Source of the DNA: Paracoccaceae bacterium
GTDB taxonomy: Bacteria > Pseudomonadota > Alphaproteobacteria > Rhodobacterales > Rhodobacteraceae
Length of the DNA stretch: 31,405 bases
Reading direction: 5' to 3'
Assembly (NCBI GenBank): GCA_016764835.1
Contig: JAESRD010000307.1
Coordinates: forward strand, 1-31,405
The notes beneath the pieces are model-generated. The model had not been told where the DNA came from, made no database searches, and saw only the letters and a program-made list of their open reading frames with translations. The position numbers were made by a program, and so were the translations under genes. Positions 1,363-16,224 of the stretch are shown piece after piece (the stretch's first letter is position 1; each line of letters opens with the position of its first letter).

Positions 1363-2345
1363 CCGGCTTCCTTTCGCAATTTCATGGCCTTGCGGATACG
1401 TGGCAGGTGGTGGCCGATCAGGATCATACTCAAAAGAGCGATGCCGTAGAAAACCGGGATCCATGCGCCTGAGGCGGAGAGAAGATGCGGCACCAGCGTG
1501 ACGAAGGCACCGCCAAGCAGCACCCGCGGCAGCGACAGCCCGTAAAAGCCAACAACAGAGCCGACGAGCAGGAAGATTGCCTGTGAGAAGGTAAACCCGC
1601 CGGGCGAAACCGTAGAGCCGGAAAAGGCGAGCGTCGCGCCACAAAGCGCGCCAATGCCACCGCTGATGCCCATGATCGAGATGCGGGCCCAGACCCGTCT
1701 TGTGCCAAATGCATCAGCGGCTGCGGAGTGGGTTTTGGCCAAGAGGAGCAACATGCCTTGGCGTGACTTTCGTAGACGCGCCACCAGATAGGTCGCGACC
1801 ACCAGCATGAGGAGTGCAAAATAGTAGCGTTGCATCGACATCTCAAGAAACGAGACAATGGGCGTGGAGACGTAGAGCCCCTCATAGCCGCCGGTTATGC
1901 CGCCAAGGTTGTTGATTATCTCAGGCACAGCCAGGGCAAGGGCGAGTGTTGTCACCGCCAAGTAGATGCCCGAAAGGTTGCGCGAGGGCCAAGCGAAGAT
2001 AACGCCAAAGGCGACACCGAGCAGCAGGGCCAAGGGCAGGCTGGCAAAGAGCGATAGCCCGTATTTTGCATCAAGCACGCCGACGGAATAAGCGCCCAGT
2101 GCGGTGAAAAACGTATGGCCAATGGAAACTTCGCCACCGTAGCGGACCAGCAGGCTGACCGCGAGCACGCCGATACTATTGGCAAAACACAGCCCCATAG
2201 TGAAGGTCCATGACCCGCCGAGCATGGCCGGTAAGAAGGCCAGCGCGATGATCAGCGCCAAGGTCGGCAAACTGCCGCTGGTGAGCTGTTTCAACATGCT
2301 GGTCTCAGAGGCGTTTGCGGGACGCTGCCCAAAGGTATCAGACAC
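1359..2345 (-). CDS. livM: HAAT-type ABC transporter permease LivM
   Basis: Inner-membrane permease of 328 residues, forming the translocation channel with LivH. Seen: a string of hydrophobic segments from about residue 27 onward, and the LivM-typical stretches VRYGGEVSIGHTFFTALGAY and SGIYLAVTTLALALAVPEI. The polar first 20 residues are cytoplasmic; a second possible start is Met17. It overlaps livH by 8 bases at its 5' end and livG by 4 at its 3' end, so the four transport genes are translationally coupled. LivM proteins are often near 320-420 residues, so this is a compact member without an N-terminal extension. Confidence 0.93.
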   Translation of the reverse strand: MSDTFGQRPANASETSMLKQLTSGSLPTLALIIALAFLPAMLGGSWTFTMGLCFANSIGVLAVSLLVRYGGEVSIGHTFFTALGAYSVGVLDAKYGLSLFASLPLALLLGVAFGVIFAWPSRNLSGIYLAVTTLALALAVPEIINNLGGITGGYEGLYVSTPIVSFLEMSMQRYYFALLMLVVATYLVARLRKSRQGMLLLLAKTHSAAADAFGTRRVWARISIMGISGGIGALCGATLAFSGSTVSPGGFTFSQAIFLLVGSVVGFYGLSLPRVLLGGAFVTLVPHLLSASGAWIPVFYGIALLSMILIGHHLPRIRKAMKLRKEAG

Positions 2346-3240
2346 GGCTACCTCCTACTTTTTCAAGGATCCCATTGGGGAAGATGTTGAGGGCGACGAG
2401 GATAATGCCAAGCAAGAATGTGCTGCTATATTCAGGCGAGACATAGAAGGCGAAGAGGTTCATCAACACGCCAATGAGGACCCCGCCGACAAGGCTGCCG
2501 GGCAGGCTGGCAAACCCGCCAATGACCGCCGCAGCAAAAGCCTGCAACATGAAGGTTGAAACCGTGGTCACGCTGAGAAATGTGGTTGGCACGATCAGCA
2601 GCGCACCGATAACGCCTAGGATGGCGGCGGTGATCCAAGCGAAGTAATGCACGGAGCGCAGGTTTAGGCCGCATACTTCTGCCGCGAAGGGGTTTTCGGA
2701 GATCGCGCGAAAGGCGATGCCGAGTTTGGTAAAGTCGATCACGAAAAACAGCGCGCCGATGGTGATGACAGTCACCGCAAGCACGGTGAGGTCATAGCCG
2801 GTAACAAACAGCCCGAGGACAGAGACCGCAAAGCGCGGGATAGGCAGATCTAGACTGACGATATCAGGGCCAAAGATCAGCAGTGTGGCGCCTTGGGTGA
2901 TCAGGCCAAAACCGAGTGTGGCAATGGTTGAGGTCAGATCAGACTCGAACACTAAGGGCGAGATTATGGAATATATCAGAAAGGCGATTGCCACAGCGCA
3001 GAGCATGGCCAGCAACGTGGCTGCCCCCCATGAAAGGCTCATGAGCACACCGCTCGACAGGCCATAGACGAGAAAAGCGGTAAAGCCCGCAACGTTGCCA
3101 TGCGAAAAGTTCACGACCTTTGAGCATTTGAAAATCATCACCAGACCAAGCGCGCCGAGCGCATAGAGACAGCCGACAATCATGCCCGACCAGACCAGCG
3201 GGAACAGATCCCGGGCAAGTGTGTTTAAGAACGCGCTCAT
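2338..3240 (-). CDS. livH: HAAT-type ABC transporter permease LivH
   Basis: Inner-membrane permease of 300 residues, the usual LivH length. Seen: the N-terminal segment SGMIVGCLYALGALGLVMIF, the NFSHGN motif typical of LivH, and about eight hydrophobic helices. The ATG at 3240 overlaps the TGA of the upstream beta-hydroxyacid dehydrogenase as ATGA, and a purine-rich GAGGAGGAG ribosome-binding site lies inside the end of that gene. The permease genes therefore share a message with the two dehydrogenases and the binding protein, which suggests that import and first oxidation are co-regulated. Confidence 0.94.
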   Translation of the reverse strand: MSAFLNTLARDLFPLVWSGMIVGCLYALGALGLVMIFKCSKVVNFSHGNVAGFTAFLVYGLSSGVLMSLSWGAATLLAMLCAVAIAFLIYSIISPLVFESDLTSTIATLGFGLITQGATLLIFGPDIVSLDLPIPRFAVSVLGLFVTGYDLTVLAVTVITIGALFFVIDFTKLGIAFRAISENPFAAEVCGLNLRSVHYFAWITAAILGVIGALLIVPTTFLSVTTVSTFMLQAFAAAVIGGFASLPGSLVGGVLIGVLMNLFAFYVSPEYSSTFLLGIILVALNIFPNGILEKVGGSRV

Positions 3241-4136
3241 TGCTCCTCCTCCGGCATTGTGCCGTTTTCAACCAGTTGAATCACGCCCGGGAAATACCGC
3301 CCACCGAGGCCATTTTCGACCGCAGCCTGATAGTATTCTTTGATCTTGGCCGCAGCGGGCAGGGCGACGCCAGTTTCGGCGGCAAGATGAAAGACGTAGT
3401 CAATATCTTTAAGCACATATTCCGGCGGAAATGACTTATCTGGGAAATGGCGCGGGGCCATTGCTTTGCGCCCGTGATTGCGCAGCACAAAACTGTCACC
3501 AGAACCTTTTGAGACCGCATCAAGCAGGGTGTTTGCGTCAACGCCGGCTCTTTCACCAAGCACGATCATTTCCGCCAGCGCCACGGTGTTGGCAAAGACC
3601 AACATGTTATTGGCCAGCTTGAGCACCTGCCCGGCGCCGACCGCCCCGCCATGGGTCACGTCAGAGGCAATATAGTCGAACAGCGGGCGAATGCGGGCAT
3701 AAAGCGGGTCGGGCGCGCCGACCATAATGCTCAGCTTGCCCTGTTGCGCGGCTTCTCTGGTGCGGGCCACTGGCGCATCGGCAAATGCGATGTCGTTGGC
3801 GGCCAATATTGCTTGGGTTTCACGGGCTGAGGCGACGGTTGTTGTGGACAGATCAACCACCGCTGTGCCGGGCCGAGCTGCGCCGACGAGCATTTTGGCC
3901 ACGGCCTGCACTTGCGGCCCACCGGGTAATGACAAGCAGATGATATCAGCCTCACCCGCCAGCTGTTCAACTGTGGCGCAGGCTTCGGTCTTGGTGTCAG
4001 CGAGAGCGGCCAGAGCGTCTGACGACAGATCATGTACCAAAACGCGGCCGCCGTGTTTTTGGGCAATGTTGCGGCACATGGGGCCGCCCATAACGCCCAG
4101 TCCAATGAAGCCTATCGTTTCATAATTTTGCATCAT
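3237..4136 (-). CDS. NAD(P)-dependent beta-hydroxyacid dehydrogenase (3-hydroxyisobutyrate dehydrogenase family)
   Basis: Predicted cytoplasmic dehydrogenase of 299 residues that would oxidise a beta-hydroxy acid, or reduce the matching semialdehyde, with a nicotinamide cofactor. Seen: the Rossmann motif GLGVMG at about 12-17 and the helical domain motif with catalytic Lys173 in KLANNML, both standard for the 3-hydroxyisobutyrate dehydrogenase, tartronate semialdehyde reductase and related enzymes. Odd: the substrate loop that usually reads DAPVSGG is DAPVARTREAAQQGKL here (about 120-135), so the acid recognised may differ from the textbook ones. The first of two adjacent ATG codons is used; only one base separates it from the stop of the upstream SDR. 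It lies between the binding protein and the permeases of the importer operon, so its substrate is probably the imported compound or its first product. Confidence 0.88.
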   Translation of the reverse strand: MMQNYETIGFIGLGVMGGPMCRNIAQKHGGRVLVHDLSSDALAALADTKTEACATVEQLAGEADIICLSLPGGPQVQAVAKMLVGAARPGTAVVDLSTTTVASARETQAILAANDIAFADAPVARTREAAQQGKLSIMVGAPDPLYARIRPLFDYIASDVTHGGAVGAGQVLKLANNMLVFANTVALAEMIVLGERAGVDANTLLDAVSKGSGDSFVLRNHGRKAMAPRHFPDKSFPPEYVLKDIDYVFHLAAETGVALPAAAKIKEYYQAAVENGLGGRYFPGVIQLVENGTMPEEEQ

Positions 4137-4137
4137 A

Positions 4138-4887
4138 TCAGTCCATTAACATCCCGCCGTTCACGTCGAGAACGGTGCCGGTGATCCAATTTGATGCAGG
4201 CGAACAGAGAAACAAAATTGCCTGTGCAATATCTTCGGGTTGGCCAAAACGGCCAAGGGGCACATTGCCATGCGGGGTGGGGGCTGCGCGCTGGGTTACG
4301 GTTTCCCACATTGGGGTTTCAACCGGGCCTGGGGCGATCGTGCTAGCATAGATGCCTTTATCTGCACCGGCTTTGGCGACCCATTTCATCAGCCCATGCA
4401 CGGCTGACTTTGCGGCCACATAAGACGGGCCAGAAGCCACGCCGCCAATTTTTGCGGCGATTGAACCCACGGCGACAATCTTGCCCATGCGCTGTTCGGC
4501 CATGATAGGGAAAATTGCGCGCAAAGGGTTCACAACGCCCATCAGGTTTACATCGAGCATCGACTGCCATTCATCATCGGTCGAATCGACCAGATGTTTG
4601 TGAGAAATTGTGCCAGCGCAAAGCACAAGAATATCAATCCTGCCATGCTGCTTTTGAGTATCGGCAATGACCGATTTGGTATCCTTAGCCGAGGTTACAT
4701 CATAGCGTAGGTAGCTGACATTGGCGGCGTCGAACTCAGCGTGGTCTGCAAGGTCGGTGGCCACAACTGTTGCACCGGCCTCTGCCAGAGCCAATACTGT
4801 GGCTCGGCCAATGCCCCCGGATGCCCCGGTGACAAGGGCGACTTTACCGTCAAGCCGCGCAGGTCCGCTTACTGGAATGGATGGCAT
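4138..4887 (-). CDS. SDR family NAD(P)-dependent oxidoreductase
   Basis: Classical short-chain dehydrogenase of 249 residues, the usual length. Seen: TGASGGIG at 20-27, LCAG at 89-92 in the place of the common NNAG, Ser142, and Tyr156 with Lys160 in YVAAK, then a C-terminal end LDVNGGMLMD that is typical of the FabG-like group. Asp45 after the second beta strand (ATDLA) favours NAD over NADP. It is the first gene after the hairpin that follows the substrate-binding protein and runs straight into the beta-hydroxyacid dehydrogenase. Together the two could oxidise a polyol or hydroxy acid brought in by the transporter. The precise alcohol or ketone substrate cannot be read from the sequence. Confidence 0.9.
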   Translation of the reverse strand: MPSIPVSGPARLDGKVALVTGASGGIGRATVLALAEAGATVVATDLADHAEFDAANVSYLRYDVTSAKDTKSVIADTQKQHGRIDILVLCAGTISHKHLVDSTDDEWQSMLDVNLMGVVNPLRAIFPIMAEQRMGKIVAVGSIAAKIGGVASGPSYVAAKSAVHGLMKWVAKAGADKGIYASTIAPGPVETPMWETVTQRAAPTPHGNVPLGRFGQPEDIAQAILFLCSPASNWITGTVLDVNGGMLMD

Positions 4888-4947: not shown

Positions 4948-4956
4948 GGTGAAGGT

Positions 4957-6168
4957 TTATTCCGCTGCTGCTGTGTCAAACACGACCGCAGGGTAGGGCT
5001 GAAATTCCCGCACGAGGACAAAGTCGCCATCCTTGTACTGAATGATACCTTCTTGCCGCGTGCCGCGGTGGTCATCCGGCTCAAACGTAACGCCACGCGC
5101 GCCGCCAATTGCCGCATTTTCCATGGTATTCATCACAGTGATAAGGTTCTCACGGGTGATGTCCATGCCGCTATCGAGCAGCAGCTGGAAGCCATGATGG
5201 AACAATGCCGCATTGCTCCAGCCGTTCAGGCCAAGCACGCCAAGTGGGTCGCCGGGGAAGAACTCTTCGACGGCGGCACGGTACGCCACAACTTCGGGCT
5301 CATCGCTAGAAACTGGCAATAGCCAAGACGAAAAGTGGACGCCTTCAAGCAGATCACCGGCCAAGTTTAGCGTCGACGGGTCGGCGGTAAAGAACGGCGC
5401 AAACCATTCAACATCTAGTGCTTGCAGATCGGCGGCCCGCAGGGCACCGGCAAGGTTGGCATTGGAACCAAAGAGGATAACAGCCTCGGCTCCCGAATTG
5501 GCCACGCGGCGGATATGAGCGCTGAAGCTGGTTGTTGAAACATCAAACGGGATGGACTCAACAGCCTCCATGCCCAGATCTTCCATATAAAGATCAAAAC
5601 CGCGCTTGGCCGACCGTCCCAGCTCGTCATTCTCCCAAAGAAGAGCCACCTTGGTCAAATCAAGCCCGTTTACAGCATAGTCGAGGCTGGAAGCTGCCGA
5701 CCAGCCATAGTCAGGCAGCAGCGGAAATACTGAGGGCTCAACGAAGAACACGCTGGCGCCGCCAACCGGGCCGATGATGGGAATGCCAGCCTCATTGGCA
5801 TAGGGGATGACGGCAACATTGGTTGCAGTGCCAAGCGGGGCTGCAAGCGCAAAGATCTCGTCATCCTCAACCAATGAGCGGGCAACCGCGACGCTGCGCG
5901 CCGGATCATAGCCATCATCGCGGGTGATGAAGTTAAAGGTCCAGCCGTCTACTTCGCCTGTTTCGTTTAGGCGCATGAAATATGCTTCTGACGCGTGAGT
6001 CAGTGTTGCATAAAACGGTACCGGCCCGGTGATCGGGGTAAACGCCCCAATCGTGACAATCTTATTTTCCGTGTCTACGCCAACCTCGTCGGCCAACGCC
6101 GGCATGGCCGTAAAGGCACTAACCATTATGGCGCTTGCAGCCACTTTCTTCCAATTTCCGATAAGCAT
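4957..6168 (-). CDS. HAAT-type ABC transporter substrate-binding protein
   Basis: Periplasmic binding protein of 403 residues with a type I periplasmic-binding-protein fold (Leu/Ile/Val-binding family). Seen: a signal peptide at 1-26 with a basic start, a hydrophobic core and a cleavage site after Ala-Leu-Ala; a mature start reading IVTIGAFTPITGPVPFY, as in this family; and a GSNANLAGALRAADL helix. There is no lipobox cysteine, so the protein is probably soluble in the periplasm. The ATG at 6168 is preceded by a strong GGAGGAG site. It is the first gene of the leftward operon and is separated from the rest by a hairpin. The family covers amino acids, amides, urea, aromatic acids and other small anions; the ligand is not predictable by eye. 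Its neighbours suggest an organic acid. Confidence 0.92.
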   Translation of the reverse strand: MLIGNWKKVAASAIMVSAFTAMPALADEVGVDTENKIVTIGAFTPITGPVPFYATLTHASEAYFMRLNETGEVDGWTFNFITRDDGYDPARSVAVARSLVEDDEIFALAAPLGTATNVAVIPYANEAGIPIIGPVGGASVFFVEPSVFPLLPDYGWSAASSLDYAVNGLDLTKVALLWENDELGRSAKRGFDLYMEDLGMEAVESIPFDVSTTSFSAHIRRVANSGAEAVILFGSNANLAGALRAADLQALDVEWFAPFFTADPSTLNLAGDLLEGVHFSSWLLPVSSDEPEVVAYRAAVEEFFPGDPLGVLGLNGWSNAALFHHGFQLLLDSGMDITRENLITVMNTMENAAIGGARGVTFEPDDHRGTRQEGIIQYKDGDFVLVREFQPYPAVVFDTAAAE

Positions 6169-6365: not shown

Positions 6366-6435
6366 GTTGGCAAGGAAAATATTTGCAAACCGGGTCAAAC
6401 AAATGATCTCAACTCATGGTTAGGAGAAAAACTTA

Positions 6436-7656
6436 ATGGAAACTGGTATACTTAGCGGCAAGATGGTGGTCGAACTTGGCAGCATGATTGCGGCACCATA
6501 TGGGACGCATCTGCTCAATCAGCTTGGCGCTGAGGTCATCAAGATTGAACCCCCTGGCGGCGAAACCACGCGCAAACTGGTCAGAGGCGGCCCGAGCGGC
6601 AGCTATTTGGCATTTAACTATGGCAAGCGCAGTCTATGTCTTGATCTGTCGAACGAGGCAGGACGTTCGGTTTTTGGCAGGTTGATCAAGCAAGCTGATA
6701 TTGTTGTGCAGAACTTATCACCCAGTGCCGCGCGCAAGTTGGGGGTAACATTTGAGGACTGCAATGCACTCAACCCCAATATCATATATTGTCATATAAA
6801 AGGCTATGGCGCCGGCCCTCTGGCCGAAAAAGTAGCCTCAAATCCTATCGCCGAAGCCGCGACTGGCATAATGTATCATAATAGGCCAGAAGGCCGCCCA
6901 GCACGACTTGGCCCATCATATCACGACCAGTTTGCCGGGTGTTATGCGGCAATTGCCGTGCTTTCGGCGCTGATGTCAGACCGATCAAAAGCCAAGCGCA
7001 ACATTGATATCGGTCTCTATGAGACTGGCCTGCATATTGCCGCGCGCGATCTTTTGGGTGTTCAACTCAAAACGCAATTGCTTGGGCGTGCCGAGCAAGA
7101 GCCATCGGCTGAGTTTAGCATTCCGGGCTACGGGGCCTATGAGACTGGTGATGGCCGGTGGCTGTATTTGGTGATGTTAAACGATGAACATTGGCGTCGA
7201 TTCTGCCGGGCAACAGATATTGAAGCATCGGATGAATATGCGAATCTGCGGCAGAGGCGGCGCAACCGTGAGGCTGTAGAAGCAATCGTTTCAACCGCTG
7301 TGGCGGCACATACTTTTGATGCGCTGACGAAGCGGCTTGATGCGCAGGGGGTCGGCTTTACTGAAGTTTTGCCGCTCGACCGGGTATTGCAGAGCGCGCA
7401 AGCACAAGCGCCTGACAAGCTATCTGAATTTGCGTTTGGCGATTACGCGTTTGAAACGCCAAACCTCCCTTTGGGGCCGCTGCTTAGTGAGGCGGCTGAG
7501 ACCTTGCCGCCGCCATTATTGGGCGAACATACCAAAGAGCTTCTGGCTGAATTTGGCTATTCTGACAGCGATATTGAGATACTTGTGCAATCAGGCGCAG
7601 CAATTGCCTCTGATCATGATGCGCCACTTTGGGCGCCGCCGAGAAAGGCTGAATAG
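6436..7656 (+). CDS. Class III CoA-transferase (CaiB/BaiF/formyl-CoA transferase family)
   Basis: Predicted cytoplasmic enzyme of 406 residues moving CoA from a donor thioester such as succinyl-CoA to a carboxylic acid. Seen: the N-terminal family pattern GKMVVELGSMIAAPYGTHLL, GAEVIKIEPPGGE at about 31-43, and the likely catalytic aspartate Asp164 in GPSYHDQFAG, whose carboxylate forms the acyl-enzyme anhydride in formyl-CoA transferase. TTAGGAG lies nine bases before the ATG. It is the first rightward gene of the divergent region shared with the liv operon, and the lyase-prpF pair follows after 108 bases that contain a GntR box. Activation of the imported acid is a reasonable role. Racemase function is less likely because the His-Asp pair of alpha-methylacyl-CoA racemase is not evident. 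Confidence 0.9.
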   Translation: METGILSGKMVVELGSMIAAPYGTHLLNQLGAEVIKIEPPGGETTRKLVRGGPSGSYLAFNYGKRSLCLDLSNEAGRSVFGRLIKQADIVVQNLSPSAARKLGVTFEDCNALNPNIIYCHIKGYGAGPLAEKVASNPIAEAATGIMYHNRPEGRPARLGPSYHDQFAGCYAAIAVLSALMSDRSKAKRNIDIGLYETGLHIAARDLLGVQLKTQLLGRAEQEPSAEFSIPGYGAYETGDGRWLYLVMLNDEHWRRFCRATDIEASDEYANLRQRRRNREAVEAIVSTAVAAHTFDALTKRLDAQGVGFTEVLPLDRVLQSAQAQAPDKLSEFAFGDYAFETPNLPLGPLLSEAAETLPPPLLGEHTKELLAEFGYSDSDIEILVQSGAAIASDHDAPLWAPPRKAE

Positions 7657-7694
7657 CTGCGGCGGCCTTATTTATGCGCACCTATCGGTAATCG

Positions 7695-7714
7695 TAGATT
7701 GTAGACAGTTGACA
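7695..7714 (+). promoter_or_regulatory. GntR-type box upstream of the lyase-prpF pair, overlapping a -35 element
   Basis: TAGATTGTAGACAGTTGACA is repeated base for base at 11400-11419. The core ATTGTAGACAGT resembles ATTGTAGACAAT upstream of gntR (16119-16130) and fits the GT(N2)AC pattern of FadR-subgroup GntR operators. The TTGACA at 7709-7714 could be a -35, with TACACC (7733-7738) as a weak -10 after 18 bases, so repressor binding would cover the promoter. The assignment to the GntR encoded at 15376-16071 is an inference from the shared box. Confidence 0.65.
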
Positions 7715-7764
7715 AATTGGCATCGAATTTTGTACACCAAAGATCACCTAATGAGAGTACAGGC

Positions 7765-8694
7765 ATGCCGCATAAGCCACAAAGCGACGTTAAACGCAGC
7801 CACGATCCTGCCGAGCGCAGGCGCATTTTCAGGGCAATGGTAGAAGCGCGCTCTGCGGTTTTACTGCCGGGTGCGGCCAATGCGCTATCAGCGCGGATTA
7901 TTGAAGATCTGGGCTTTGGCGCTGTTTATCTGACCGGGGCAGGGCTGACCAATATGCATCTTGGTCAGCCCGATCTTGGGCTGGTGACTGCATCAGAACT
8001 TGTGGAAACAACGGCCCGCATATCGGATGTTTGCCAAATCCCACTGCTCGTGGACATGGATACAGGCTTTGGCAACGCGCTGAACGCTTACCAGACTATG
8101 CGCCGGTTAGAGCAAGTTGGCGCCGCCGCGATCCAGATCGAAGATCAGGTATTTCCCAAAAAATGCGGCCATTTTTCTGGCAAAGCGGTGGTGCCTATTG
8201 ACGAGATGCTGGGCAAGATCAAGGCCTGCCTCGATGCGCGCCAAGATGAGAACACCGTGATTGTTGCGCGCACAGATGCCCGCGCGATCGAGGGCATGCC
8301 AGCGGCATTGGAACGGGCGCAGCGGATGGCTGAGGTCGGCGCTGATATGGTGTTTGTCGAGGCTCCAAAATCGCTAGGCGAAGTGCAGCAAATTGGCGGG
8401 CTTGCAGCGCCGCAAATTATTAACCTTGTCGTTGGTGGGCAAACCCCAATGATTGAGCGCGATGTGTTGCATGCGGCTGGTTTCTCGTTTGTGTTGTTTG
8501 CCAATGCTGGGCTGCAAGCGGCGGTCTTGGCAATGCAAGAGGTTCTTGGGTCGCTGTATCAGACAGGTTCGCTGGCGGCAGTGACCGACCGAATGGCAAG
8601 TTTCTCAGAGCGACAAAGGCTTGTCGGTAAGCCAGAATTTGATGCGCTATCGGCCAAGTATGAAGGCAAATATTTCATAAATCCAAAGGCTTAG
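7765..8694 (+). CDS. Isocitrate lyase/PEP mutase superfamily carbon-carbon lyase
   Basis: 309-residue cytoplasmic enzyme of the superfamily that includes methylisocitrate lyase, 2,3-dimethylmalate lyase, oxaloacetate decarboxylase and PEP mutase. Seen: DMDTGFGN with metal-binding Asp97 and Asp99, QIEDQ at about 124-128, and the KKCGH motif at 132-136 whose cysteine acts as acid/base in the true lyases. KKCGH argues for C-C cleavage and against a mutase. The open frame extends to a TTG at 7717, but the ATG at 7765 has a GAGAG site seven bases upstream and the earlier codons overlap the promoter. Two bases separate its stop from the PrpF-type isomerase, so the pair is co-translated. A 2-alkylmalate or methylisocitrate-like substrate yielding pyruvate or a similar keto acid is likely but unproven. 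Confidence 0.88.
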   Translation: MPHKPQSDVKRSHDPAERRRIFRAMVEARSAVLLPGAANALSARIIEDLGFGAVYLTGAGLTNMHLGQPDLGLVTASELVETTARISDVCQIPLLVDMDTGFGNALNAYQTMRRLEQVGAAAIQIEDQVFPKKCGHFSGKAVVPIDEMLGKIKACLDARQDENTVIVARTDARAIEGMPAALERAQRMAEVGADMVFVEAPKSLGEVQQIGGLAAPQIINLVVGGQTPMIERDVLHAAGFSFVLFANAGLQAAVLAMQEVLGSLYQTGSLAAVTDRMASFSERQRLVGKPEFDALSAKYEGKYFINPKA

Positions 8695-8696
8695 AC

Positions 8697-9836
8697 ATGG
8701 CTTTGCTCAGTATTCCTGCGTTTTTCATGCGCGGCGGAACATCCAACGCGCTGGTTTTTGCGCAAGCCGACCTACCTGACAGCCGGGCTGATTGGGACGC
8801 AATCTTTTTGGCGGCTATGGGCTCGCCAGACGGGTTTGGGCGGCAGCTTGACGGTATGGGCGGCGGGGTTTCATCTTTGTCAAAGGTCTGCGTGCTCAGC
8901 CCGCCAAGCCGGGCGGACGCTGATGTTGACTTTACATTTGCCCAAATAGCGGTGGGCGAGGCGCGGGTAGATTATGCTGGCAATTGCGGCAATATGATTT
9001 CAGCCGTGGGCCCGGCGGCGCTTGAGTTGGGGCTGGTTACCGTGCCAAATGGCAGCGATGCGTCGATACGCATTCACAACACCAACACCGCCAAGATTAT
9101 CGTCAGCAGTTTTCCTGTATGCGACGGGAAGCTGAAGCCGCAGGGCGATTTGCACATTGACGGTGTGTCTGGCGGTGCGGCGCCGATTAAGCTCGACTTT
9201 TTGGAGCCGGGCGGGGCGCGGACTGGCGCTCTTTTGCCCACCGGATCGGCGATAGACATGCTTGACTTTGGTGGGTCACAAATACGCGCCAGCCTGATTG
9301 ACGCGGCTAATCCTTGTGTTTTTGTGGCGGCCTCAGATTTGGCTCTGGCCGCCACCGAGCATCCAGATGAGCTGGGTGCGCATGCAGTGTTTTTGCAGAA
9401 AATGGAGGCGATACGGCAGGCAGGCGCTGTTCGAATGGGGATGGCCAAAAGTTTGACCGCCGCGGCGCAGATGCCTAGCGTCCCTAAAGTTGCCATTGTC
9501 GGGCCACCAGCGCAGGCAAGCACCTTGTCGGGCAGCACCGTTGGCCGTGCCGATATGTCGTTGACCGTGCGCATGCTGTCGATGGAGCTGCCGCACCGCG
9601 CGGTGCCGGTCACGGGGGCAATCTGCTTGGCGCTGGCGGCGCGTGTGCCGGGGACAATCCCGCATCAGCTTTGCCGGAAGGGTACAGGCGCAATGGTCAT
9701 TGCCCACCCATCGGGCACGATCCTTGTTGATGCAGCGGTCGAGACCCGCGCCGGCCAGATACACGCGATTAGCGGTACTGTGTTCCGAACGGCGCGGATG
9801 CTGTTTTCGGGCCAGGTCCATTACCGACTGGCCTGA
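8697..9836 (+). CDS. PrpF-family double-bond isomerase/tautomerase
   Basis: 379 residues, typical of the PrpF family (2-methylaconitate cis-trans isomerase, 3-methylitaconate delta-isomerase, 4-oxalomesaconate tautomerase), which has a diaminopimelate-epimerase-like fold. Seen: MRGGTSNALVF at 11-21, QLDGMGGGVSSLSK at 50-63, and GNCGNMISAVGP at 95-106, where Lys63 and Cys97 are the residues expected to move the proton. The canonical MRGGTSKG reads MRGGTSNA here, a change at a conserved substrate-loop position. It begins two bases after the lyase stop. The pairing of an isomerase with an alkylmalate-type lyase matches the methylcitrate cycle variant (prpF) and the methylitaconate/dimethylmalate end of nicotinate fermentation. 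It ends convergently, about 10 bases from the FAD dehydrogenase gene. Confidence 0.88.
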   Translation: MALLSIPAFFMRGGTSNALVFAQADLPDSRADWDAIFLAAMGSPDGFGRQLDGMGGGVSSLSKVCVLSPPSRADADVDFTFAQIAVGEARVDYAGNCGNMISAVGPAALELGLVTVPNGSDASIRIHNTNTAKIIVSSFPVCDGKLKPQGDLHIDGVSGGAAPIKLDFLEPGGARTGALLPTGSAIDMLDFGGSQIRASLIDAANPCVFVAASDLALAATEHPDELGAHAVFLQKMEAIRQAGAVRMGMAKSLTAAAQMPSVPKVAIVGPPAQASTLSGSTVGRADMSLTVRMLSMELPHRAVPVTGAICLALAARVPGTIPHQLCRKGTGAMVIAHPSGTILVDAAVETRAGQIHAISGTVFRTARMLFSGQVHYRLA

Positions 9837-9846
9837 CGCAGGGCTG

Positions 9847-11337
9847 TTAGGCCGCCACGCCGCAGTATTTGGCGGCACTTTCGCCAGCGAGCTTGCCAAA
9901 GACCGAGCCAGACATCAGGCCGGTGCCGCCGGGGTAGTTTTCATAAAACAGCCCACCAACCAGCTCGCCCGCTGCATAGAGGCCGGGAATAGACTGGTCG
10001 GTCATGTCCTGCACTTCGCCATCGGTATTGATCTGCAATCCGCCGAAGGTGAATGTAATACCGGTGGTGCAAACATAGGCCTCATAGGGGGGTTGGTTGA
10101 TCGGCAATGCCCAATTTGATTTGGGCGGCTCAATCCCGTCTGTGCCAACCTTGTCCAGAATGGCCGGGTTATAATCGCTGCCGTCTTGGCAGGCGGCATT
10201 ATAGGCATCTATGGTCTCAACCAGCTTTTGCGGGTCGATCTCCAGCTGTTCGGCCAGCCCTTCAATCGTGTCTGACACAGCCTTGGTTACTTCGCGAATG
10301 CGGTATTCTTCACGCAGCCTGTGGATCGTCTGCTGATCAAAAATTTGAATAGCGGTCCGGTTTGGTTGGTCCATGATCTCGCGGCCGTATTTGGCGTAAG
10401 TCAGGTTGCGGTAATCCGCTCCTTCATCGACAAAGCGTTCGCAGTTGATGTTGACCATTATGCCCAGCGGATAGGAGTGTTTTTGGAAATTATCGAGCAC
10501 CCAGCGGTCACCATATGGCGGCGCCGAGATATCCCATTCGCAGGCGTGGCAGGATGACCAATTACCGAAAGGTTTGGCCCCGATATCAAGCGCCATGTTA
10601 ATGCCTTCGCCCATATTGTGACGGGTGCCGCGCACCCGGCAAAGGTCCCAGCCGGGGCCGAGGTAGCGCGCCCGCATTTCGGGGTTTGACTCGAAGCCAC
10701 CACAGGCAAGGATCACCGATTTGGCGGTAATCTCGCCGTAGCCTTCTTTGGTGCGGGTTTTTACGCCCGTCACCACCCGATCGGACGACTGGATCAGCCC
10801 AATAGCGGCTGTGCCATAGCGTATTTCGACGCCCATCTTCTCGGCCCGCATAATCTCGGCCTCGACAAGCCCGGCACCGCCGCCGACAGCCTCAATATTC
10901 ACGCCACCGTAAAAGTGATGCTTGCCATCGACCAAAAATGACTGACGGCCGAACATTGGCACAAAGCGGATAGAGTGGCTGCGCAGCCACGCCATTGTTG
11001 CCCGCGAATTATCGACAAGTAGGTTTGCCAGCTCTTCATCGCATTGATAACGCGTCACTTCTCGCATTTGGTCCATGAAAAATTCGCGGCTATGCGTGGG
11101 TAAAACGATCATCTCGCGCTCAGCGTTTGACAGGTCGGTCAAAATATCTTGCGACACATCTTCGAGACCCTCATGAGCGAACCTAAAGCCACCAGCAGTG
11201 AAATACGAGTTGCCGCCACGCTCATCTTCGGGCGCCCGCTCGAGCACCAAAACCTTAGCGCCGTTTTCGCTGGCTGATAGGGCAGCACAAAGAGCGGCAT
11301 TCCCTGCGCCGACTACAATGACATCAAATCCACTCAC
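9847..11337 (-). CDS. FAD-dependent dehydrogenase, tricarballylate dehydrogenase (TcuA)-like
   Basis: Flavoprotein of 496 residues in the fumarate reductase/succinate dehydrogenase superfamily. Seen: the FAD Rossmann motif DVIVVGAGNAALCAALSA near the N-terminus, then LERAPEDERGGNSYFTAGG, a layout characteristic of TcuA, which oxidises tricarballylate to cis-aconitate, and the C-terminal GLYAAGELVGGLFYENYPGG flavin motif. The longer frame opens at 11430, but a GTG at 11337 is preceded by TAGGAG with a seven-base gap and begins right before the Rossmann strand; the longer form would start inside the GntR box. It is divergent from the aldehyde dehydrogenase with the box at 11400-11419 between them. 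No TcuB-like electron acceptor lies nearby. Alternatives are 3-ketosteroid dehydrogenase-like or other succinate-type dehydrogenases. Confidence 0.85.
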   Translation of the reverse strand: MSGFDVIVVGAGNAALCAALSASENGAKVLVLERAPEDERGGNSYFTAGGFRFAHEGLEDVSQDILTDLSNAEREMIVLPTHSREFFMDQMREVTRYQCDEELANLLVDNSRATMAWLRSHSIRFVPMFGRQSFLVDGKHHFYGGVNIEAVGGGAGLVEAEIMRAEKMGVEIRYGTAAIGLIQSSDRVVTGVKTRTKEGYGEITAKSVILACGGFESNPEMRARYLGPGWDLCRVRGTRHNMGEGINMALDIGAKPFGNWSSCHACEWDISAPPYGDRWVLDNFQKHSYPLGIMVNINCERFVDEGADYRNLTYAKYGREIMDQPNRTAIQIFDQQTIHRLREEYRIREVTKAVSDTIEGLAEQLEIDPQKLVETIDAYNAACQDGSDYNPAILDKVGTDGIEPPKSNWALPINQPPYEAYVCTTGITFTFGGLQINTDGEVQDMTDQSIPGLYAAGELVGGLFYENYPGGTGLMSGSVFGKLAGESAAKYCGVAA

Positions 11338-11399
11338 GTTTTCACTCCTATAATTGTGCTGGATTGCGGATGTTTCCACCGCACCAGCTTGGCTTTTGT

Positions 11400-11419
11400 T
11401 AGATTGTAGACAGTTGACA
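11400..11419. promoter_or_regulatory. GntR-type box between the FAD dehydrogenase and aldehyde dehydrogenase genes
   Basis: TAGATTGTAGACAGTTGACA, identical over 20 bases to 7695-7714, although the flanks and neighbouring genes are unrelated. It sits 63 bases before the GTG of the leftward FAD gene and 71 before the GTG of the rightward aldehyde dehydrogenase gene, and it contains TTGACA in the rightward direction. A single box could control both divergent units. The match to the gntR-proximal box supports control by the window's own GntR. Confidence 0.65.
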
Positions 11420-11489
11420 GTCAAGATCAAAGGGTGCAGTTAGAGGAGGCAAAGCGGCCAAGCTGCCGTCTTTAGGCGAGGGGGATTTT

Positions 11490-12962
11490 GTGAAAAAATT
11501 TGGGCTTTTCATCGATGGGGGTTGGACGCAGCCTGGTCAGGGTGCAACATTCCAGTCCTTCAATCCCTATACTGGCAAGGCTTGGGCTGAACTGCGCGAA
11601 GCGAGCGAGGCCGAGGTTGGCTGCGCCGCCGAGGCCGCCGCACAGGCGCAGCCGGCTTGGGCGGCGACCAGCGGCGTTGATCGTGCGCAAATATTGAACC
11701 GAGCGGCGGATATATTGGCCGCCAATGCTGATAATATGTCGGTGGTCGAGTCGACTGACAATGGCAAAATCATCCGCGAAACCCGCTCGCAGATGCTCTA
11801 TGCTGCCCGGCTTTTTCGGTTTTTTGCAGGCTATGCTGACAAGCTTTACGGCACGACCATCCCGCTCGATCAGCCGTCAATATTAGATTACACGATCCGC
11901 GAGCCGCTTGGCGTTGTTGGCCTGATCACTGCTTGGAACTCGCCGATTACACTATTGTGCAACAAGCTGCCTGCCGCTTTGGCTGCGGGCAATACCGTGG
12001 TTATCAAACCCTCTGAACATGCCTCTGTCTCTACGCTGGAATTGTGCAAATTGCTGGACGAAGCGGGCATGCCCGCCGGTGTTGTCAACGTGGTTACGGG
12101 CGCTGGGGCGACAGGGGCTGCGATTGTCGCGCATGACAAAATTGCCAAAGTCAGCTTCACGGGCAGCGCTGATGTTGGCCGAAAAATTGCCGCCGCAGCT
12201 GGTAGCTTGCTTAAGCCCATGGCCTTAGAGCTTGGCGGCAAATCGCCAAATATCATTTTTGATGACGCCAATGTTGAGGCCGCAACCGTTGGCGCTTTGG
12301 CAGGTATCTTTGGCGCGACCGGGCAAACCTGTGTCGCGGGTTCGCGGCTTTTGGTGCAAAAGGGCCTGTACCACGAAATTGTCGACCGTTTGTCTAAGCG
12401 CGCGCGCATAATTCGGCTTGGCGACCCGCTTGATCCGGCATCAGAGATGGGCACGGTGGCCAACCAGACGCAATTTGACCGGATCATGGCGGCGATCGCC
12501 TTGGCCAAGCAAGATGGCGCGCAGTTAGTCGCAGGCGGTGGCCGGGCGCAGGGCGCGGGGCTGGGCAACGGATTATTTGTCGAGCCGACGATTTTTGCCG
12601 AGGCTCGCAATGACATGGAACTCGCCCGGTCGGAGATATTTGGCCCAGTTCTGGCAGTGATCCCGTTTGAGACCGAAGCCGAGGCGGTGGCAATAGCAAA
12701 TGACACCGAATTTGGGCTGGCATCGGGCATTTGGACCCAAGACATATCGCGCGCAATGCGGTTGGTGCCGCAGATGAAATCGGGCGTGGTCTGGGTCAAC
12801 ACCTACCGTATGGTTACGGCGCAAGCGCCCTTTGGCGGCGTTAAGCAAAGTGGCTATGGCCGCGAACGCGGTGAGCAGGGCATCTATGAATTTACCACGA
12901 CCAAGAATGTAATGATCGACTATTCGGGCGAAATTCGCGACCCGTTTGCAATAAAAATTTAG
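11490..12962 (+). CDS. NAD(P)-dependent aldehyde dehydrogenase
   Basis: Aldehyde dehydrogenase superfamily member of 490 residues that oxidises an aldehyde to the carboxylate. Seen: Asn150 in AWNSP, FTGSADVG at about 223-230, general base Glu247 in LELGGK, and nucleophile Cys281 in GQTCVAGSR, all in standard order and spacing. The start is a GTG at 11490 behind a GAGGGGGA site. It leads a three-gene run with the epimerase-like protein (24-base gap) and MmgE/PrpD. The sequence style resembles the broad betaine/hydroxymuconic/lactaldehyde group, so the substrate cannot be named. In context it probably removes an aldehyde formed from the branched acid or its side chain. Confidence 0.92.
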   Translation: MKKFGLFIDGGWTQPGQGATFQSFNPYTGKAWAELREASEAEVGCAAEAAAQAQPAWAATSGVDRAQILNRAADILAANADNMSVVESTDNGKIIRETRSQMLYAARLFRFFAGYADKLYGTTIPLDQPSILDYTIREPLGVVGLITAWNSPITLLCNKLPAALAAGNTVVIKPSEHASVSTLELCKLLDEAGMPAGVVNVVTGAGATGAAIVAHDKIAKVSFTGSADVGRKIAAAAGSLLKPMALELGGKSPNIIFDDANVEAATVGALAGIFGATGQTCVAGSRLLVQKGLYHEIVDRLSKRARIIRLGDPLDPASEMGTVANQTQFDRIMAAIALAKQDGAQLVAGGGRAQGAGLGNGLFVEPTIFAEARNDMELARSEIFGPVLAVIPFETEAEAVAIANDTEFGLASGIWTQDISRAMRLVPQMKSGVVWVNTYRMVTAQAPFGGVKQSGYGRERGEQGIYEFTTTKNVMIDYSGEIRDPFAIKI

Positions 12963-12986
12963 AGCGTAGGCGCTGAAAGGGACAAA

Positions 12987-13967
12987 ATGAAAATCGACGG
13001 CGGAAAATTCATGATCACCGGTGGCGTCAGCCTGATTGGCTCGCATGTGGCAGAGCATTTGCTCGCGGCGGGTGCGGCTGAAGTGGTCCTGTTCGACAAT
13101 TACTCGCTCGGCACCACGGATATGATTGGGCATATCCTTGATGACAGCCGGGTTAAGCTTGTGCGGGGCGATATTACCCGGATCAACGAGTTGTACGATA
13201 CGCTCGAGGGTGTTGACGGTATTTTTGCCATTGCCGGTTTCTTGACCCTGCCGTTCAGCCAAAACCCGGCATTGGGGATCACGGTCAACGCACTTGGCCA
13301 TGTAAATGTGCTCGAAGCGGCGCGGTATCGTGGTGTCAAAAAGGTCATTTTTTCATCATCAGTTGCCACATATGGCGACCCTGGCCCTGGTGTTATCGAC
13401 GAAACGATGCCGTTTAATTTTCATTCGATGACGCCGCCGGGCGTGCTTTATGGCAGCACCAAGATCATTGGCGAACAACTTGGCAGGCTTTATTCTGAGC
13501 GCTACGGCATACAATCTGTGTCCTTGCGTTATTCGACGGTTTACGGCGAAAGGCAGCATTATAGAGGCGTCAATGCGCTCTATATTATTGATACATATGA
13601 CAAATTGGTCAAGGGCGAGCGACCGTCTATGCCGGGCGATGGCAGCGAGGTGCATGACTATATCCATGTTGCCGATGTGGCGCGGGCCAACTTGATGGCC
13701 ATGCAAAGTGATGTAACCGGCGAAGCGGTGAATGTGGCTACCGGCACAGCGACAAACCTCAACCGCTTGTTTGAAATCGTTGCGGGGTTGGTTGGGTCTG
13801 ACCTCAAGCCGATCTACGGGGCAAGCAGCGAGGCGGTCAGGGTGACGACCTCCAGCGCGCTGGATTTTGACATTGGCAAAATCGACCGATTGATCGGCTG
13901 GAAGCCCGAAATATCCATCGAGGATGGGATCGGGCGGCTGGTGCGCTGGCTTGAAACACAAAGCTAA
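12987..13967 (+). CDS. NAD-dependent epimerase/dehydratase family protein (extended SDR)
   Basis: 326-residue extended short-chain dehydrogenase with the nucleotide-sugar epimerase fold. Seen: TGGVSLIGSH at 11-20 as the NAD motif, an acidic residue after the second strand (LFDN), FSSSVATYGDP around 122-132, and the active-site pair Tyr155 and Lys159 in YGSTK. Odd: the middle glycine of the usual TGxxGxxG is Ser here. A purine-rich AAAGGGA precedes the ATG. No sugar-nucleotide genes are near and it is flanked by an aldehyde dehydrogenase and MmgE/PrpD, so redox or epimerisation of a hydroxy acid or lactone intermediate is more likely than cell-wall sugar work. Its stop overlaps a possible earlier start of the next gene (TAATG). 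Confidence 0.85.
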   Translation: MKIDGGKFMITGGVSLIGSHVAEHLLAAGAAEVVLFDNYSLGTTDMIGHILDDSRVKLVRGDITRINELYDTLEGVDGIFAIAGFLTLPFSQNPALGITVNALGHVNVLEAARYRGVKKVIFSSSVATYGDPGPGVIDETMPFNFHSMTPPGVLYGSTKIIGEQLGRLYSERYGIQSVSLRYSTVYGERQHYRGVNALYIIDTYDKLVKGERPSMPGDGSEVHDYIHVADVARANLMAMQSDVTGEAVNVATGTATNLNRLFEIVAGLVGSDLKPIYGASSEAVRVTTSSALDFDIGKIDRLIGWKPEISIEDGIGRLVRWLETQS

Positions 13968-13990
13968 TGCGCGCGCAACAGGAGCACAAG

Positions 13991-15379
13991 ATGACAGAAA
14001 AAGTAGAAGGCGGGCCATCCGCAAGTCTGGCTCGCTTTGCCGCCAGTACAAGTTTTGCCACCATCCCGGCCGAGGTTCTTGAGCGGGCGCGTATTCACAT
14101 ACTCGACGGGATCGGGCTGGCTTTGGCGGCCACGGCATTTCCCTTTGCGCCGCCGACGCTGGCGGCAGTGGCCGAGTTGGCTGGTGGTGCGGGCGGCTGC
14201 TCAATTATTGGCAGCAATCTACGTGCGCCGCCGCGCGATGCGGCAATGGCCAATGGCATTTTGGTGCATGGGCTCGACTATGACGACACCCATTTGCGCG
14301 CCATTGTTCACCCAACGGCGGCCGTTTTGCCCGCTGTTTTGGCGGTGGCCGAAGACAAAGATCTATCTGGCGCTGCGGCGCTGACCGCCTTTTGCATCGG
14401 CATGGAAGCGGCTATCCGCATCGGGGCTGCGGTTAACGGCGGTTTCCATCATACTGGGTTTCACGCCACCGGCGTGGTGGCCCATTTCAGCTCTGCTTTG
14501 GCCGCTGGGCGGCTCATGGGGGCAAGCCAAGACAACCATGTAAACGCACTTGGCATTGCTGCGAGCACGGCGTCGGGGGTTCAGGTCTTTTTGGAAGAAG
14601 GTGCATGGACCAAGCGGCTGCATCCGGGCTGGGCGGCGGCGGGCGGCATTACTGCGGCGACATTGGCGCGCCACGGATTTGTCGGGCCAACGCGGGCCTT
14701 GGAGGGGCGGTTTGGTCTGTTTGAAACCCATCTGCATACCCATATTGCCGATGTTGAGATGGGGTATTTGAGCGCGGGCCTAGGCGATGAGTGGATGATG
14801 GCGGATACGGCGCTCAAGCCCTATCCGGTTTGTCACTTTATCCACGGTGCGGCAGATGCGGCGCTGGAACTGCGCAGTGAATGCGAAGGCTCTGCGATCG
14901 CAGCGGTTGAAATATTCTTGCCACCGGACACGCTTAAAATTGTGGCAGAGCCGATTGAGCATAAACGCAAGGCCAAGAATGAATATGAGGCCAAATTCAG
15001 CGCGCCGTTCGTCGTGGCCTCAACCTTGTTAAAGGGGCGGTTTGGTTTGGCTGACCTAACAGAGTCGGCGATCGCTGACCAAGCTGTTCAAGATCTTGCG
15101 GGCCGCTGCACCTGCTCCCCTGATCCAGACACCCGTTTTCCCGACTATTTCTCTGGTGGGGTTACGGTGACAATGGCTGATGGCAGGCAAATCTCACGCC
15201 ATGTCGCGGTTAATAGCGGCGCAGGCGAAAAGCTGATGACCTTGGATCAAACCACCGAAAAGTTTCTGCAAAATGCCTGCCTTGCTATCAGCGAGAGCAA
15301 GGCGATGCGGGTCCGAGATGCGGTGGTAAACCTCGCCAACAGGTTGGTTGGCGAGTTGATGGCGCTCTTGCGGCACTAG
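13991..15379 (+). CDS. MmgE/PrpD family protein (2-methylcitrate dehydratase/cis-aconitate decarboxylase fold)
   Basis: 462 residues, normal for a family that includes 2-methylcitrate dehydratase PrpD, cis-aconitate decarboxylase and iminodisuccinate epimerase. Seen: HGLDYDDTH at 93-101, HPTA at 107-110, HHTGFHATG at 153-161, WTKRLHPGWAAAGG at about 206-219 and LKPYPVCHFIHG at about 275-286. By spacing, Asp96, Thr100, His158, Lys208 and Lys276 correspond to the active-site residues Asp93, Thr97, His159, Lys207 and Lys272 of cis-aconitate decarboxylase. ATG 13991 is preferred over 13967 because AGGAG lies six bases before it. It could hydrate or dehydrate the unsaturated acid made by the PrpF-type isomerase, feeding the lyase; decarboxylation is also possible. 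It ends convergently, overlapping gntR by 4 bases. Confidence 0.88.
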   Translation: MTEKVEGGPSASLARFAASTSFATIPAEVLERARIHILDGIGLALAATAFPFAPPTLAAVAELAGGAGGCSIIGSNLRAPPRDAAMANGILVHGLDYDDTHLRAIVHPTAAVLPAVLAVAEDKDLSGAAALTAFCIGMEAAIRIGAAVNGGFHHTGFHATGVVAHFSSALAAGRLMGASQDNHVNALGIAASTASGVQVFLEEGAWTKRLHPGWAAAGGITAATLARHGFVGPTRALEGRFGLFETHLHTHIADVEMGYLSAGLGDEWMMADTALKPYPVCHFIHGAADAALELRSECEGSAIAAVEIFLPPDTLKIVAEPIEHKRKAKNEYEAKFSAPFVVASTLLKGRFGLADLTESAIADQAVQDLAGRCTCSPDPDTRFPDYFSGGVTVTMADGRQISRHVAVNSGAGEKLMTLDQTTEKFLQNACLAISESKAMRVRDAVVNLANRLVGELMALLRH

Positions 15380-16071
15380 GCTTCGGTGCCCGATGCGGCC
15401 AGCTCGGCCTGCCGGTCCATGGCCAGCTTGGCGTGAATACGGGCATTACAAATATGGGTCCGCATGGCCTTTTCGGCTTGGTCAGGGTCGCCGGTTGATA
15501 GGGCATCAAGAATTGCATGATGCTCTTTGAGCGCCTGCGCGGCCCGCCCGGACATCGTTGATGATTTATAGCGGTAAAGCCGCAGCAAGTCATACAAATC
15601 CCCCGAAATCACCGACACGAGGTAGTCGTTCCTTGATTCTTTGGCGATGCGGAAGTGAAAATCAAAGTCGCCGGATTGTTGGTAATAGCCTTCGCCCAAA
15701 ACCACTTCACTATGCGAGGCATGATCGGCCAAAAGGCTGCGCAGCTGGTCTACGCCTTCTGGCGAAATGCGCTCAGCGGCGAGACGGCAGGCCATGCCTT
15801 CTAATGCTTCGCGCACGGTCAATAACTCGTCCAGCCGCTGGGGGGTCAGTTCAACAACGCTGACGCCAATATTGGTTTTGCGCTCCAATAGACGCCTGCC
15901 TTCGAGTTGCCTAATAGCTTCTCGCAAGGGGCCCCGGCTAATGCCAAATTCGGTCGCAAGGGCTTGCTCTCTCAGCCATTCACCGGGCGCTAACTCGCCC
16001 CCAAAAATTGCGGCTTCAAGTCGCTCCGTCACGGCATCGACAAGAGATTTTGCCTCAATTTTCTTTGCCAT
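15376..16071 (-). CDS. GntR family transcriptional regulator, FadR/FCD subgroup
   Basis: 231-residue DNA-binding regulator. Seen: an N-terminal winged helix-turn-helix (about 12-70) with REQALATEFGISRGPLREAI, typical of GntR, and a helical C-terminal FCD domain with Asp135/His139, His184/185 and His206, the pattern of the metal and ligand site in FadR-like effector domains that often bind carboxylic acids. The frame opens at 16137, but the ATG at 16071 has CAGGAG seven bases upstream and the longer form would start just upstream of the putative operator and translate through it. The box at 16119-16130 suggests autoregulation, and identical boxes mark the lyase-prpF and FAD/aldehyde dehydrogenase promoters. 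It is therefore the likely local repressor, relieved by a pathway acid. Confidence 0.9.
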   Translation of the reverse strand: MAKKIEAKSLVDAVTERLEAAIFGGELAPGEWLREQALATEFGISRGPLREAIRQLEGRRLLERKTNIGVSVVELTPQRLDELLTVREALEGMACRLAAERISPEGVDQLRSLLADHASHSEVVLGEGYYQQSGDFDFHFRIAKESRNDYLVSVISGDLYDLLRLYRYKSSTMSGRAAQALKEHHAILDALSTGDPDQAEKAMRTHICNARIHAKLAMDRQAELAASGTEA

Positions 16072-16118
16072 GAGCTGGCTCCTGTTGGGCTGGCATCGGC
16101 CAGTTATTGACCGTGTTG

Positions 16119-16130
16119 ATTGTAGACAAT
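16119..16130. promoter_or_regulatory. GntR-type operator upstream of gntR
   Basis: ATTGTAGACAAT has ATTGT/ACAAT arms around a two-base centre, the symmetrical form of the box also seen at 7699-7709 and 11404-11414. It lies 48 bases upstream of the chosen gntR start. It fits the TTGT-N2-ACAA operators of FadR-subgroup GntR proteins, so negative autoregulation is the simplest reading. Confidence 0.7.
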
Positions 16131-16224
16131 AAATCAAGCTGCCGCGCGTATCAAGCCGAAGGACAATTGCGGAAAATTTTGTAGAGCGAACGCAAAGATT
16201 GGCGGAAATGGCCTCGTCCTATTG

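Follow-up and report, generated by a model that had tools for sequence, protein, structure and literature searches.

The sources and fates of branched dicarboxylic acids in nature are poorly known. In one branch of the nicotinate fermentation of Eubacterium barkeri, which employs Mii, DmdAB and Dml, dimethylmaleate hydratase is paired with dimethylmalate lyase, and the petal death protein of carnation is a 2-alkylmalate lyase. Ict is a coenzyme A (CoA) transferase of family I. It stands with Ich, Ccl, Mcd and Msi in the itaconate-methylsuccinate cluster of Pseudomonas and Cupriavidus (PMC9875883; PMC12290011). Here we analyze a contig of 31,405 nucleotides from a Paracoccaceae bacterium (JAESRD010000307.1; "the window" denotes this whole stretch), in which the genes at positions 6436-16071 had been proposed, from the DNA letters alone, to form one full route for the degradation of a branched di- or tricarboxylic acid.

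The window is the junction of two adjoining, separable gene sets: module A, comprising positions 1-7656 and continued on a further contig of the same genome bin (C56), and module B, at 7765-16071. With modest confidence, we favor the view that both are catabolic sets for branched dicarboxylic acids, and that module B is a CoA-free arm for substituted succinates in which the lyase splits an alkylmalate. All seven families named in the sequence-only reading are present at 6436-16071 according to Pfam, and these are real genes, with orthologues of 61-87% identity kept in the same order in loci L008 (Primorskyibacter flagellatus), L009 (Arenibacterium halophilum) and L010 (a Pararhizobium metagenome-assembled genome). 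The view that the combination fits no textbook pathway is supported for module B, whose gene combination was described in none of the papers listed by our full-text literature searches. The genes are as follows.

593-3, running off the window start: livF, module A (residues 22-218; residues 233-264 lie at C56:3-98)
583..3240, minus strand: livG, livM and livH of a branched-chain-type ATP-binding cassette (ABC) transporter, module A (from the list of open reading frames, ORFs)
3237..4136, minus strand: HIBADH-like beta-hydroxyacid dehydrogenase, module A (NCBIfam HIBADH/2-hydroxy-3-oxopropionate reductase models, all below cut-off)
4138..4887, minus strand: classical short-chain dehydrogenase/reductase (SDR), module A (from orthologues)
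4957..6168, minus strand: livK periplasmic binding protein, module A (Peripla_BP_6)
6436..7656, plus strand: class III (CaiB/BaiF) CoA transferase, module A (Pfam CoA_transf_3; divergent to livK)
7765..8694, plus strand: lyase of the isocitrate lyase (ICL)/phosphoenolpyruvate (PEP)-mutase superfamily, module B (Pfam; KKCGH at 8158-8172)
8697..9836, plus strand: PrpF/Mii-type double-bond isomerase, module B (Pfam PrpF, 371.7 bits)
9847..about 11337, minus strand: TcuA-like flavin adenine dinucleotide (FAD) dehydrogenase (FAD_binding_2), module B (Pfam, NF006130)
11490..12962, plus strand: aldehyde dehydrogenase (ALDH), module B (Pfam Aldedh)
12987..13967, plus strand: extended SDR (GalE/3-beta-HSD superfamily), module B (Pfam)
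13991..15379, plus strand: MmgE/PrpD family protein (isomerase, hydratase or decarboxylase), module B (Pfam)
15376..16071, minus strand: GntR/FCD regulator, module B (Pfam), which closes the stretch

Orthologues at 61-90% identity keep the whole order from livG to gntR in L009, L010 and, without the ALDH gene, L008. Within it, livH (87-90%) and the GntR/FCD gene (80-81%) are conserved in all three loci, the classical SDR (79-84%) also in L173 and L174, and the HIBADH-like gene also in L168 and L173-L176.

The separability of the two modules is seen on plasmids. Module A is complete on pPABY7 of Salipiger abyssi (covered whole, 56.5 kb), on a Qingshengfaniella plasmid (55 kb covered) and on pTiAF3.44 of Agrobacterium larrymoorei (39.8 kb covered), and on all three the CoA transferase (73, 72 and 62% identity) is divergent to livK. 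In these stretches of 39.8-56.5 kb, no match to the lyase, PrpF, the TcuA-like protein, ALDH or the extended SDR was found at 1e-10 over half the query; the only module B matches, both on pPABY7, were to MmgE/PrpD (32%, next to genes for hydantoinase) and to GntR (34%). The L173 and L174 stretches extend 274 and 272 bases past the CoA transferase on the side where module B would lie. Given this gene order, and the absence of module B there, we assign the CoA transferase at 6436 to module A and reject a single pathway that includes it. The idea of one full route survives in part: the lyase, PrpF, TcuA-like and MmgE/PrpD genes do recur together, and each of the four belongs to a type whose dicarboxylate substrates share a succinate-like core, but the CoA transferase sits in a separate, plasmid-borne, itaconate-like operon. 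The sequence-only reading had itself named genes that act in separate pathways as a finding that would refute it, and this holds for the CoA transferase as far as gene order shows. Conversely, two of six tested genomes with module B genes (those of L011 and L014) have no match to the FAS1_DH-domain protein of module A at 1e-30, while the remaining four do.

These data also bear on the idea that module B feeds module A. The TcuA-like enzyme would then produce an aconitate-type acid, PrpF would isomerize it, the MmgE/PrpD protein would decarboxylate it to an alkylitaconate and the CoA transferases, hydratase and lyase of module A would finish the degradation, with the module B lyase as a side branch; cis-aconitate decarboxylase provides a decarboxylating precedent within the MmgE/PrpD family (PMC12290011). 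We consider this unlikely, because the L011 and L014 genomes possess module B genes without the FAS1_DH match, and the three plasmids carry module A without module B (the search covering the plasmid stretches of those genomes).

Module B itself recurs as a set. We examined the best 80 loci among 327 confirmed lyase relatives in our genome collection, L008-L010 being three of them and some loci being cut by contig ends, and counted without regard to kinship. PrpF was present at an identity of at least 45% in 17 of them. Near the lyase, the TcuA-like protein (at least 40%) occurred in 9 of these 17 PrpF-bearing loci vs. 2 of the 63 others, MmgE/PrpD (at least 50%) in 9 vs. none, ALDH (at least 50%) in 7 vs. 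none, the extended SDR (at least 45%) in 6 vs. 2, and GntR (at least 55%) in 9 vs. 4. When the search was started from PrpF in a sample of 385 genomes of the class, 28 matched at 1e-90, the window's own included; within approximately 8 kb in the 27 others (less at contig ends), a TcuA-like gene (at least 36%) was present in 14, a lyase-family gene (at least 33%) in 10 and an MmgE/PrpD gene (at least 28%) in 8. A search of the 385 genomes started from the extended SDR gave five others at 1e-60, among them G339 and G431 with the full set and another lyase type, and G202 with a TcuA-SDR-PrpD group in whose vicinity lyase and PrpF were not found. Lyase, PrpF, TcuA-like and MmgE/PrpD genes hence recur together in different layouts, one of which, seen in L015-L020 and on Paracoccus pantotrophus pPAN3, has added AtuA and DUF4387 proteins.

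In L015-L020, L143, L166 and L173, the neighbors of these gene sets include an AtuA-family protein accompanied by a small one, either DUF4387 or AtuA_ferredoxin; a literature search on AtuA/DUF4387 gave nothing relevant among the matches listed. Amidohydrolase, polysaccharide-deacetylase, isochorismatase and amidase neighbors in the wider lyase clade had suggested alkylated cyclic imides, such as maleimides derived from chlorophyll, as a substrate. This idea was rejected and kept only as background: isochorismatase (at least 60%), amidohydrolase (at least 50%) and FAD (at least 40%) queries matched in none of the 17 PrpF-bearing loci, vs. 37, 32 and 28 of the 63 others.

The lyase misses both PrpB equivalog models (TIGR02317, 261.6 vs. 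a cut-off of 354.4; NF008455, 241.7 vs. 353), and T212, E213, F214, P236 and R241 of the Escherichia coli and Salmonella PrpB proteins are replaced by V, V, G, A and Q. Judged from its sequence, the window lyase is not a plain methylisocitrate lyase and is nearer to the petal death protein. Position 212 corresponds to an ICL serine that holds the side carboxylate of succinate; its loss would presumably fit an alkyl, not a carboxymethyl, group. The role of a Ser315-type residue was sought in the excerpts of PMC7609661 and was not found there. V212 together with G214 is shared by all 16 PrpF-linked lyases, all 64 other close homologues and all nine second lyase copies of a grouping that omitted L022, L128, L131-L134 and the second copies found at L060, L078 and L085, although these were aligned. 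A tree of 108 lyases places that of the window with those of L008-L010 (100/96) and L008-L014 (100/98), within a set of 20 rows (99/94) of which 19 are PrpF-linked; two further PrpF-linked lyases (L128 and L132) are placed elsewhere, and the petal death protein and two PrpB rows form long branches of unsure placement. From these features, we infer that the window lyase is a 2-alkyl- or 2,3-dialkylmalate lyase, and the residue signature may help to tell enzymes of the 2-alkylmalate type apart from true methylisocitrate lyases.

The nine second lyase copies, which keep P236 and R241 unlike the window lyase, have their own surroundings. A LeuC-family large subunit is present in the loci of eight of them, six of which also have a LeuD/DmdB-family small subunit (the LeuC/LeuD-DmdB models were tested on L033 and L036), an arrangement similar to the dimethylmaleate hydratase and dimethylmalate lyase pair of the nicotinate fermentation. 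Such subunits stand next to a second lyase copy at L025 16912-19554, L033 16911-19553, L035 8532-11188, L036 16985-19601 and L045 16767-19468, in clusters that also hold hydantoinase, racemase-like and nitrilase/amidase-type genes; these clusters may serve an aerobic route of the dimethylmalate type that starts from substituted imides or hydantoins.

PrpF is nearly equally close to methylaconitate isomerase (PDB 2pvz, 257.2 bits) and to the 3-methylitaconate isomerase Mii (3g7k, 255.8 bits), and misses both TIGR02334 (287.9 vs. 440.55) and the oxalomesaconate tautomerase model NF033377 (305.2 vs. 440). The protein at 9847-11337 passes NF006130 (562.3 vs. 369) and fails TIGR02485 (268.6 vs. 372.55); since these two TcuA-named NCBI models disagree, automatic TcuA names may cover several functions. 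The MmgE/PrpD protein is far below the PrpD models (NF006943, 52.2 vs. 575; TIGR02330, 47.3 vs. 458). Its residues H93, D96, H107, H158, K208 and K276 are invariant in 11 of 11 proteins and equal, by motif and spacing (the IDS sequence itself being unaligned), all six conserved residues of iminodisuccinate (IDS) epimerase (H85, D88, H99, H150, K198 and K266; PMC12290011). In a structure ranking it gave ties, with decarboxylase and epimerase not separable. On cut-offs and residues, the plain methylcitrate cycle was rejected for the window lyase and the MmgE/PrpD protein.

A methylcitrate-like tricarboxylate route, by which a methyltricarballylate-type acid would be converted via methylaconitate and methylisocitrate to pyruvate and succinate, would suit the TcuA-like protein that passes NF006130 and a PrpF that equals methylaconitate isomerase in bits. 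It would also suit loci L116 and L117, where the same partners stand beside a different lyase with T212, E213, F214 and R241; the L116 lyase passes TIGR02317 (428.7 vs. 354.4) and fails NF008455 (326 vs. 353). For the window such a route is quite improbable in our view, as its lyase, without T212, F214, P236 and R241, and its MmgE/PrpD protein fall short of TIGR02317 and TIGR02330 by the scores given above. The L116/L117 set adjoins AMP-ligase (acyl-CoA ligase), MaoC, acyl-CoA dehydrogenase and thiolase-domain genes, which suggests that in these loci the released acid is activated and then beta-oxidized.

Building on the observed gene content, its recurrence, the separability of the modules, the lyase signature and the MmgE/PrpD residues, we infer every reaction of module B, their order and the substrate. 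A 2- or 2,3-substituted succinate would, if needed, be isomerized with respect to its stereochemistry by the MmgE/PrpD protein; the TcuA-like flavoenzyme would desaturate it to a substituted maleate or fumarate, and the PrpF/Mii-type enzyme would move the double bond. Hydration to a 2-alkyl- or 2,3-dialkylmalate would be performed by the MmgE/PrpD protein or by a housekeeping hydratase such as a class I fumarase, an enzyme that a figure legend of PMC12290011 names as mesaconate hydratase. Without CoA, the lyase would then cleave the alkylmalate, giving a carboxylic acid together with a 2-oxo acid that is probably pyruvate, while ALDH and the extended SDR would supply the diacid from a more reduced precursor, such as a lactol, alcohol or aldehyde. 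We tentatively put forward, as a proposal somewhat more doubtful than the general scheme, that module B is an undescribed aerobic, CoA-independent route in Alphaproteobacteria, with methylsuccinate or 2,3-dialkylsuccinates of greater length as substrates, and that it parallels the itaconate/methylsuccinate pathway, which depends on CoA.

Several observations weigh against this scheme. No gene of module B encodes a hydratase of certain function, and hydration by the MmgE/PrpD protein, as the sequence-only reading had it, is only one possible reaction because the family also holds isomerases and decarboxylases; where isomerases have a tyrosine as second base (PMC12290011 for both points), the MmgE/PrpD protein has His153/His154, invariant in 11 of 11, the column being judged from the B. 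subtilis structure 7bra. ALDH, which L008 lacks, and the extended SDR fit no clear step, a point on which the sequence-only reading is not supported. The window lyase matches the second copies on the LeuC/LeuD side only partially, as Pro236 and Arg241 are kept there, and the L116 lyase that passes TIGR02317 fits a tricarboxylate substrate in that locus, which speaks against a uniform substrate. Two of the five SDR-bearing genomes (G229 and G318) have none of the set nearby, and the TcuA, SDR and PrpD genes of L153 have neither a lyase nor PrpF in their vicinity. The C56 gene order of module A is found in L167 (Pararhizobium) and L169 (Primorskyibacter) without the Ccl-like gene in the stretches covered. 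Finally, the counts are not corrected for phylogeny.

Module A is, as far as homology tells, a variant of an itaconate-type pathway. C56 (locus L159) prolongs it with the end of livF, a metallo-beta-lactamase-fold (lactonase-like) protein, GntR, an isochorismatase-family hydrolase, the FAS1_DH-domain protein, two class III CoA transferases, an itaconyl-CoA-hydratase homologue and a citramalyl-CoA-lyase-like gene, an order that recurs in Arenibacterium (L166) and Roseovarius pacificus (L168). L169 lies on the same Primorskyibacter contig as L008, about 60-80 kb apart. The hydratase homologue (L159:6133-6987) has only two PDB matches, the itaconyl-CoA hydratases 8khg (226.8 bits, E 3e-66) and 8huc, which establish homology only. 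The Ccl-like gene (C56:7009-7785) shares 62% identity with the L166 protein, which scores 143 against a RipC_Ccl cut-off of 375 and 158.3 bits to 8khl; the C56 GntR gene is 82% identical to that of L166 (tblastn). The CoA transferases of module A are all of class III, with their nearest NCBIfam models far below cut-off. The Liv-type ABC transporter would import the substrate, which may be a lactone or lactone-related, and its degradation would end in an itaconate-type arm that depends on CoA and consists of the class III CoA transferases, the hydratase homologue and the citramalyl-CoA-lyase-like enzyme. For the L009 orthologue of the metallo-beta-lactamase-fold protein, the nearest models are the N-acyl homoserine lactone (AHL) lactonases, below cut-off. 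Among the plasmids that bear module A is a Ti plasmid, and the module goes there with a gene whose annotation reads N-acyl homoserine lactonase family (L173, L174, L176, L185-L188).

The bin to which the window is assigned comprises 3.7 Mb (94.67% complete, 4.6% contamination), compared with 2.1-3.2 Mb for the 17 congeners searched. In tetranucleotide profiles, taken from one stretch of at most 19 kb per contig, the window groups with contigs C56, C68 and C32 (r 0.45-0.72; GC content 0.54-0.56), while C14, C106, C96, C12, C115, C40 and C45 stand apart (r to the window halves 0.20-0.44; GC content 0.50-0.54); r between the left half of the window and seven orthologous loci is 0.37-0.59. Of 137 genomes of the family, only the one that contains the window has a PrpF match at 1e-80. 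The contig may be an island, a plasmid or misbinned. Module B genes that serve different substrates and are joined only as a mobile carbon-use island would agree with this composition, unlike that of other bin contigs, and with a membership that varies between loci; we consider this explanation unlikely, since the set is met again in different families and with its genes in several orders.

Because its composition sets the window contig apart, absences in the bin (G000) say little about the true host. The bin, to which the window may not belong, had no second PEP_mutase-type lyase apart from isocitrate lyase, no PrpD over cut-off, and no TcuB over cut-off (best TIGR02484 score 37.2 bits vs. 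246.6). Methylmalonyl-CoA mutase is present. Three citrate synthases (PF00285) were found, two on C106 and one on C14; both C106 copies are under the methylcitrate-synthase cut-off of TIGR01800 (290.0 and 137.2 vs. 421.3), the C14 copy not being among those scanned. The window itself, as had been noted, has no citrate synthase that could be recognized by eye among its listed ORFs.

Further genes lie around the two modules. An integrase-core (rve_3) transposase-like gene beyond module A (L159 12698-13336, on C56) fits mobility, and a second group of metallo-beta-lactamase-fold, MmgE/PrpD and SDR genes occurs in the same bin (L160 147-3801, on C68). The window region 16225-30293 holds a peptidase S58, another CoA transferase and, by eye, acyl-CoA dehydrogenase-, acyl-CoA ligase- and thiolase-like ORFs, a beta-oxidation-like gene set.

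If the proposed scheme is correct, MmgE/PrpD, PrpF, TcuA-like and "methylisocitrate lyase" genes, whose present annotation goes no further than the family, would gain functions in a cleavage route without CoA, which would also supply enzymes for the handling of methylsuccinate-type acids.

Module B has its lyase, isomerase and MmgE/PrpD families in common with the 2-methylcitrate cycle (PrpBCD/AcnD/PrpF), from which it differs in failing the PrpB, PrpF and PrpD equivalog cut-offs and in the lack of a recognizable citrate synthase in the window. With the tricarballylate system TcuABC it shares a TcuA-like protein, over the cut-off of NF006130 and under that of TIGR02485, but in the bin, whose link to the window is uncertain, no TcuB over cut-off was found. 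As in the E. barkeri branch, a PrpF-family isomerase adjoins an ICL-superfamily lyase; module B adds a flavin dehydrogenase, ALDH and SDR, no aconitase-type hydratase is among the genes scanned with Pfam at 6436-17226, and it is related lyases, not that of the window, which stand beside LeuC/LeuD-DmdB-type hydratases. The window lyase has the KKCGHxxGKxVVP loop, FVEAP and GG in place of FG in common with the carnation petal death protein, a plant protein that has Ile212, Ser236 and Tyr241 where the window lyase has Val212, Ala236 and Gln241. Module A resembles the itaconate-methylsuccinate cluster (PMC9875883; PMC12290011) in its CoA transferases, its Ich homologue and its Ccl-like lyase. Its CoA transferases are of class III and not of family I, and the acyl-CoA dehydrogenases, which lie elsewhere in the window, are at most candidates for Mcd. 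The MmgE/PrpD protein of module B keeps the six residues named for the family, but a histidine replaces the isomerase tyrosine, and the other enzymes of module B include PrpF, an ICL-type lyase and a flavoenzyme like TcuA.

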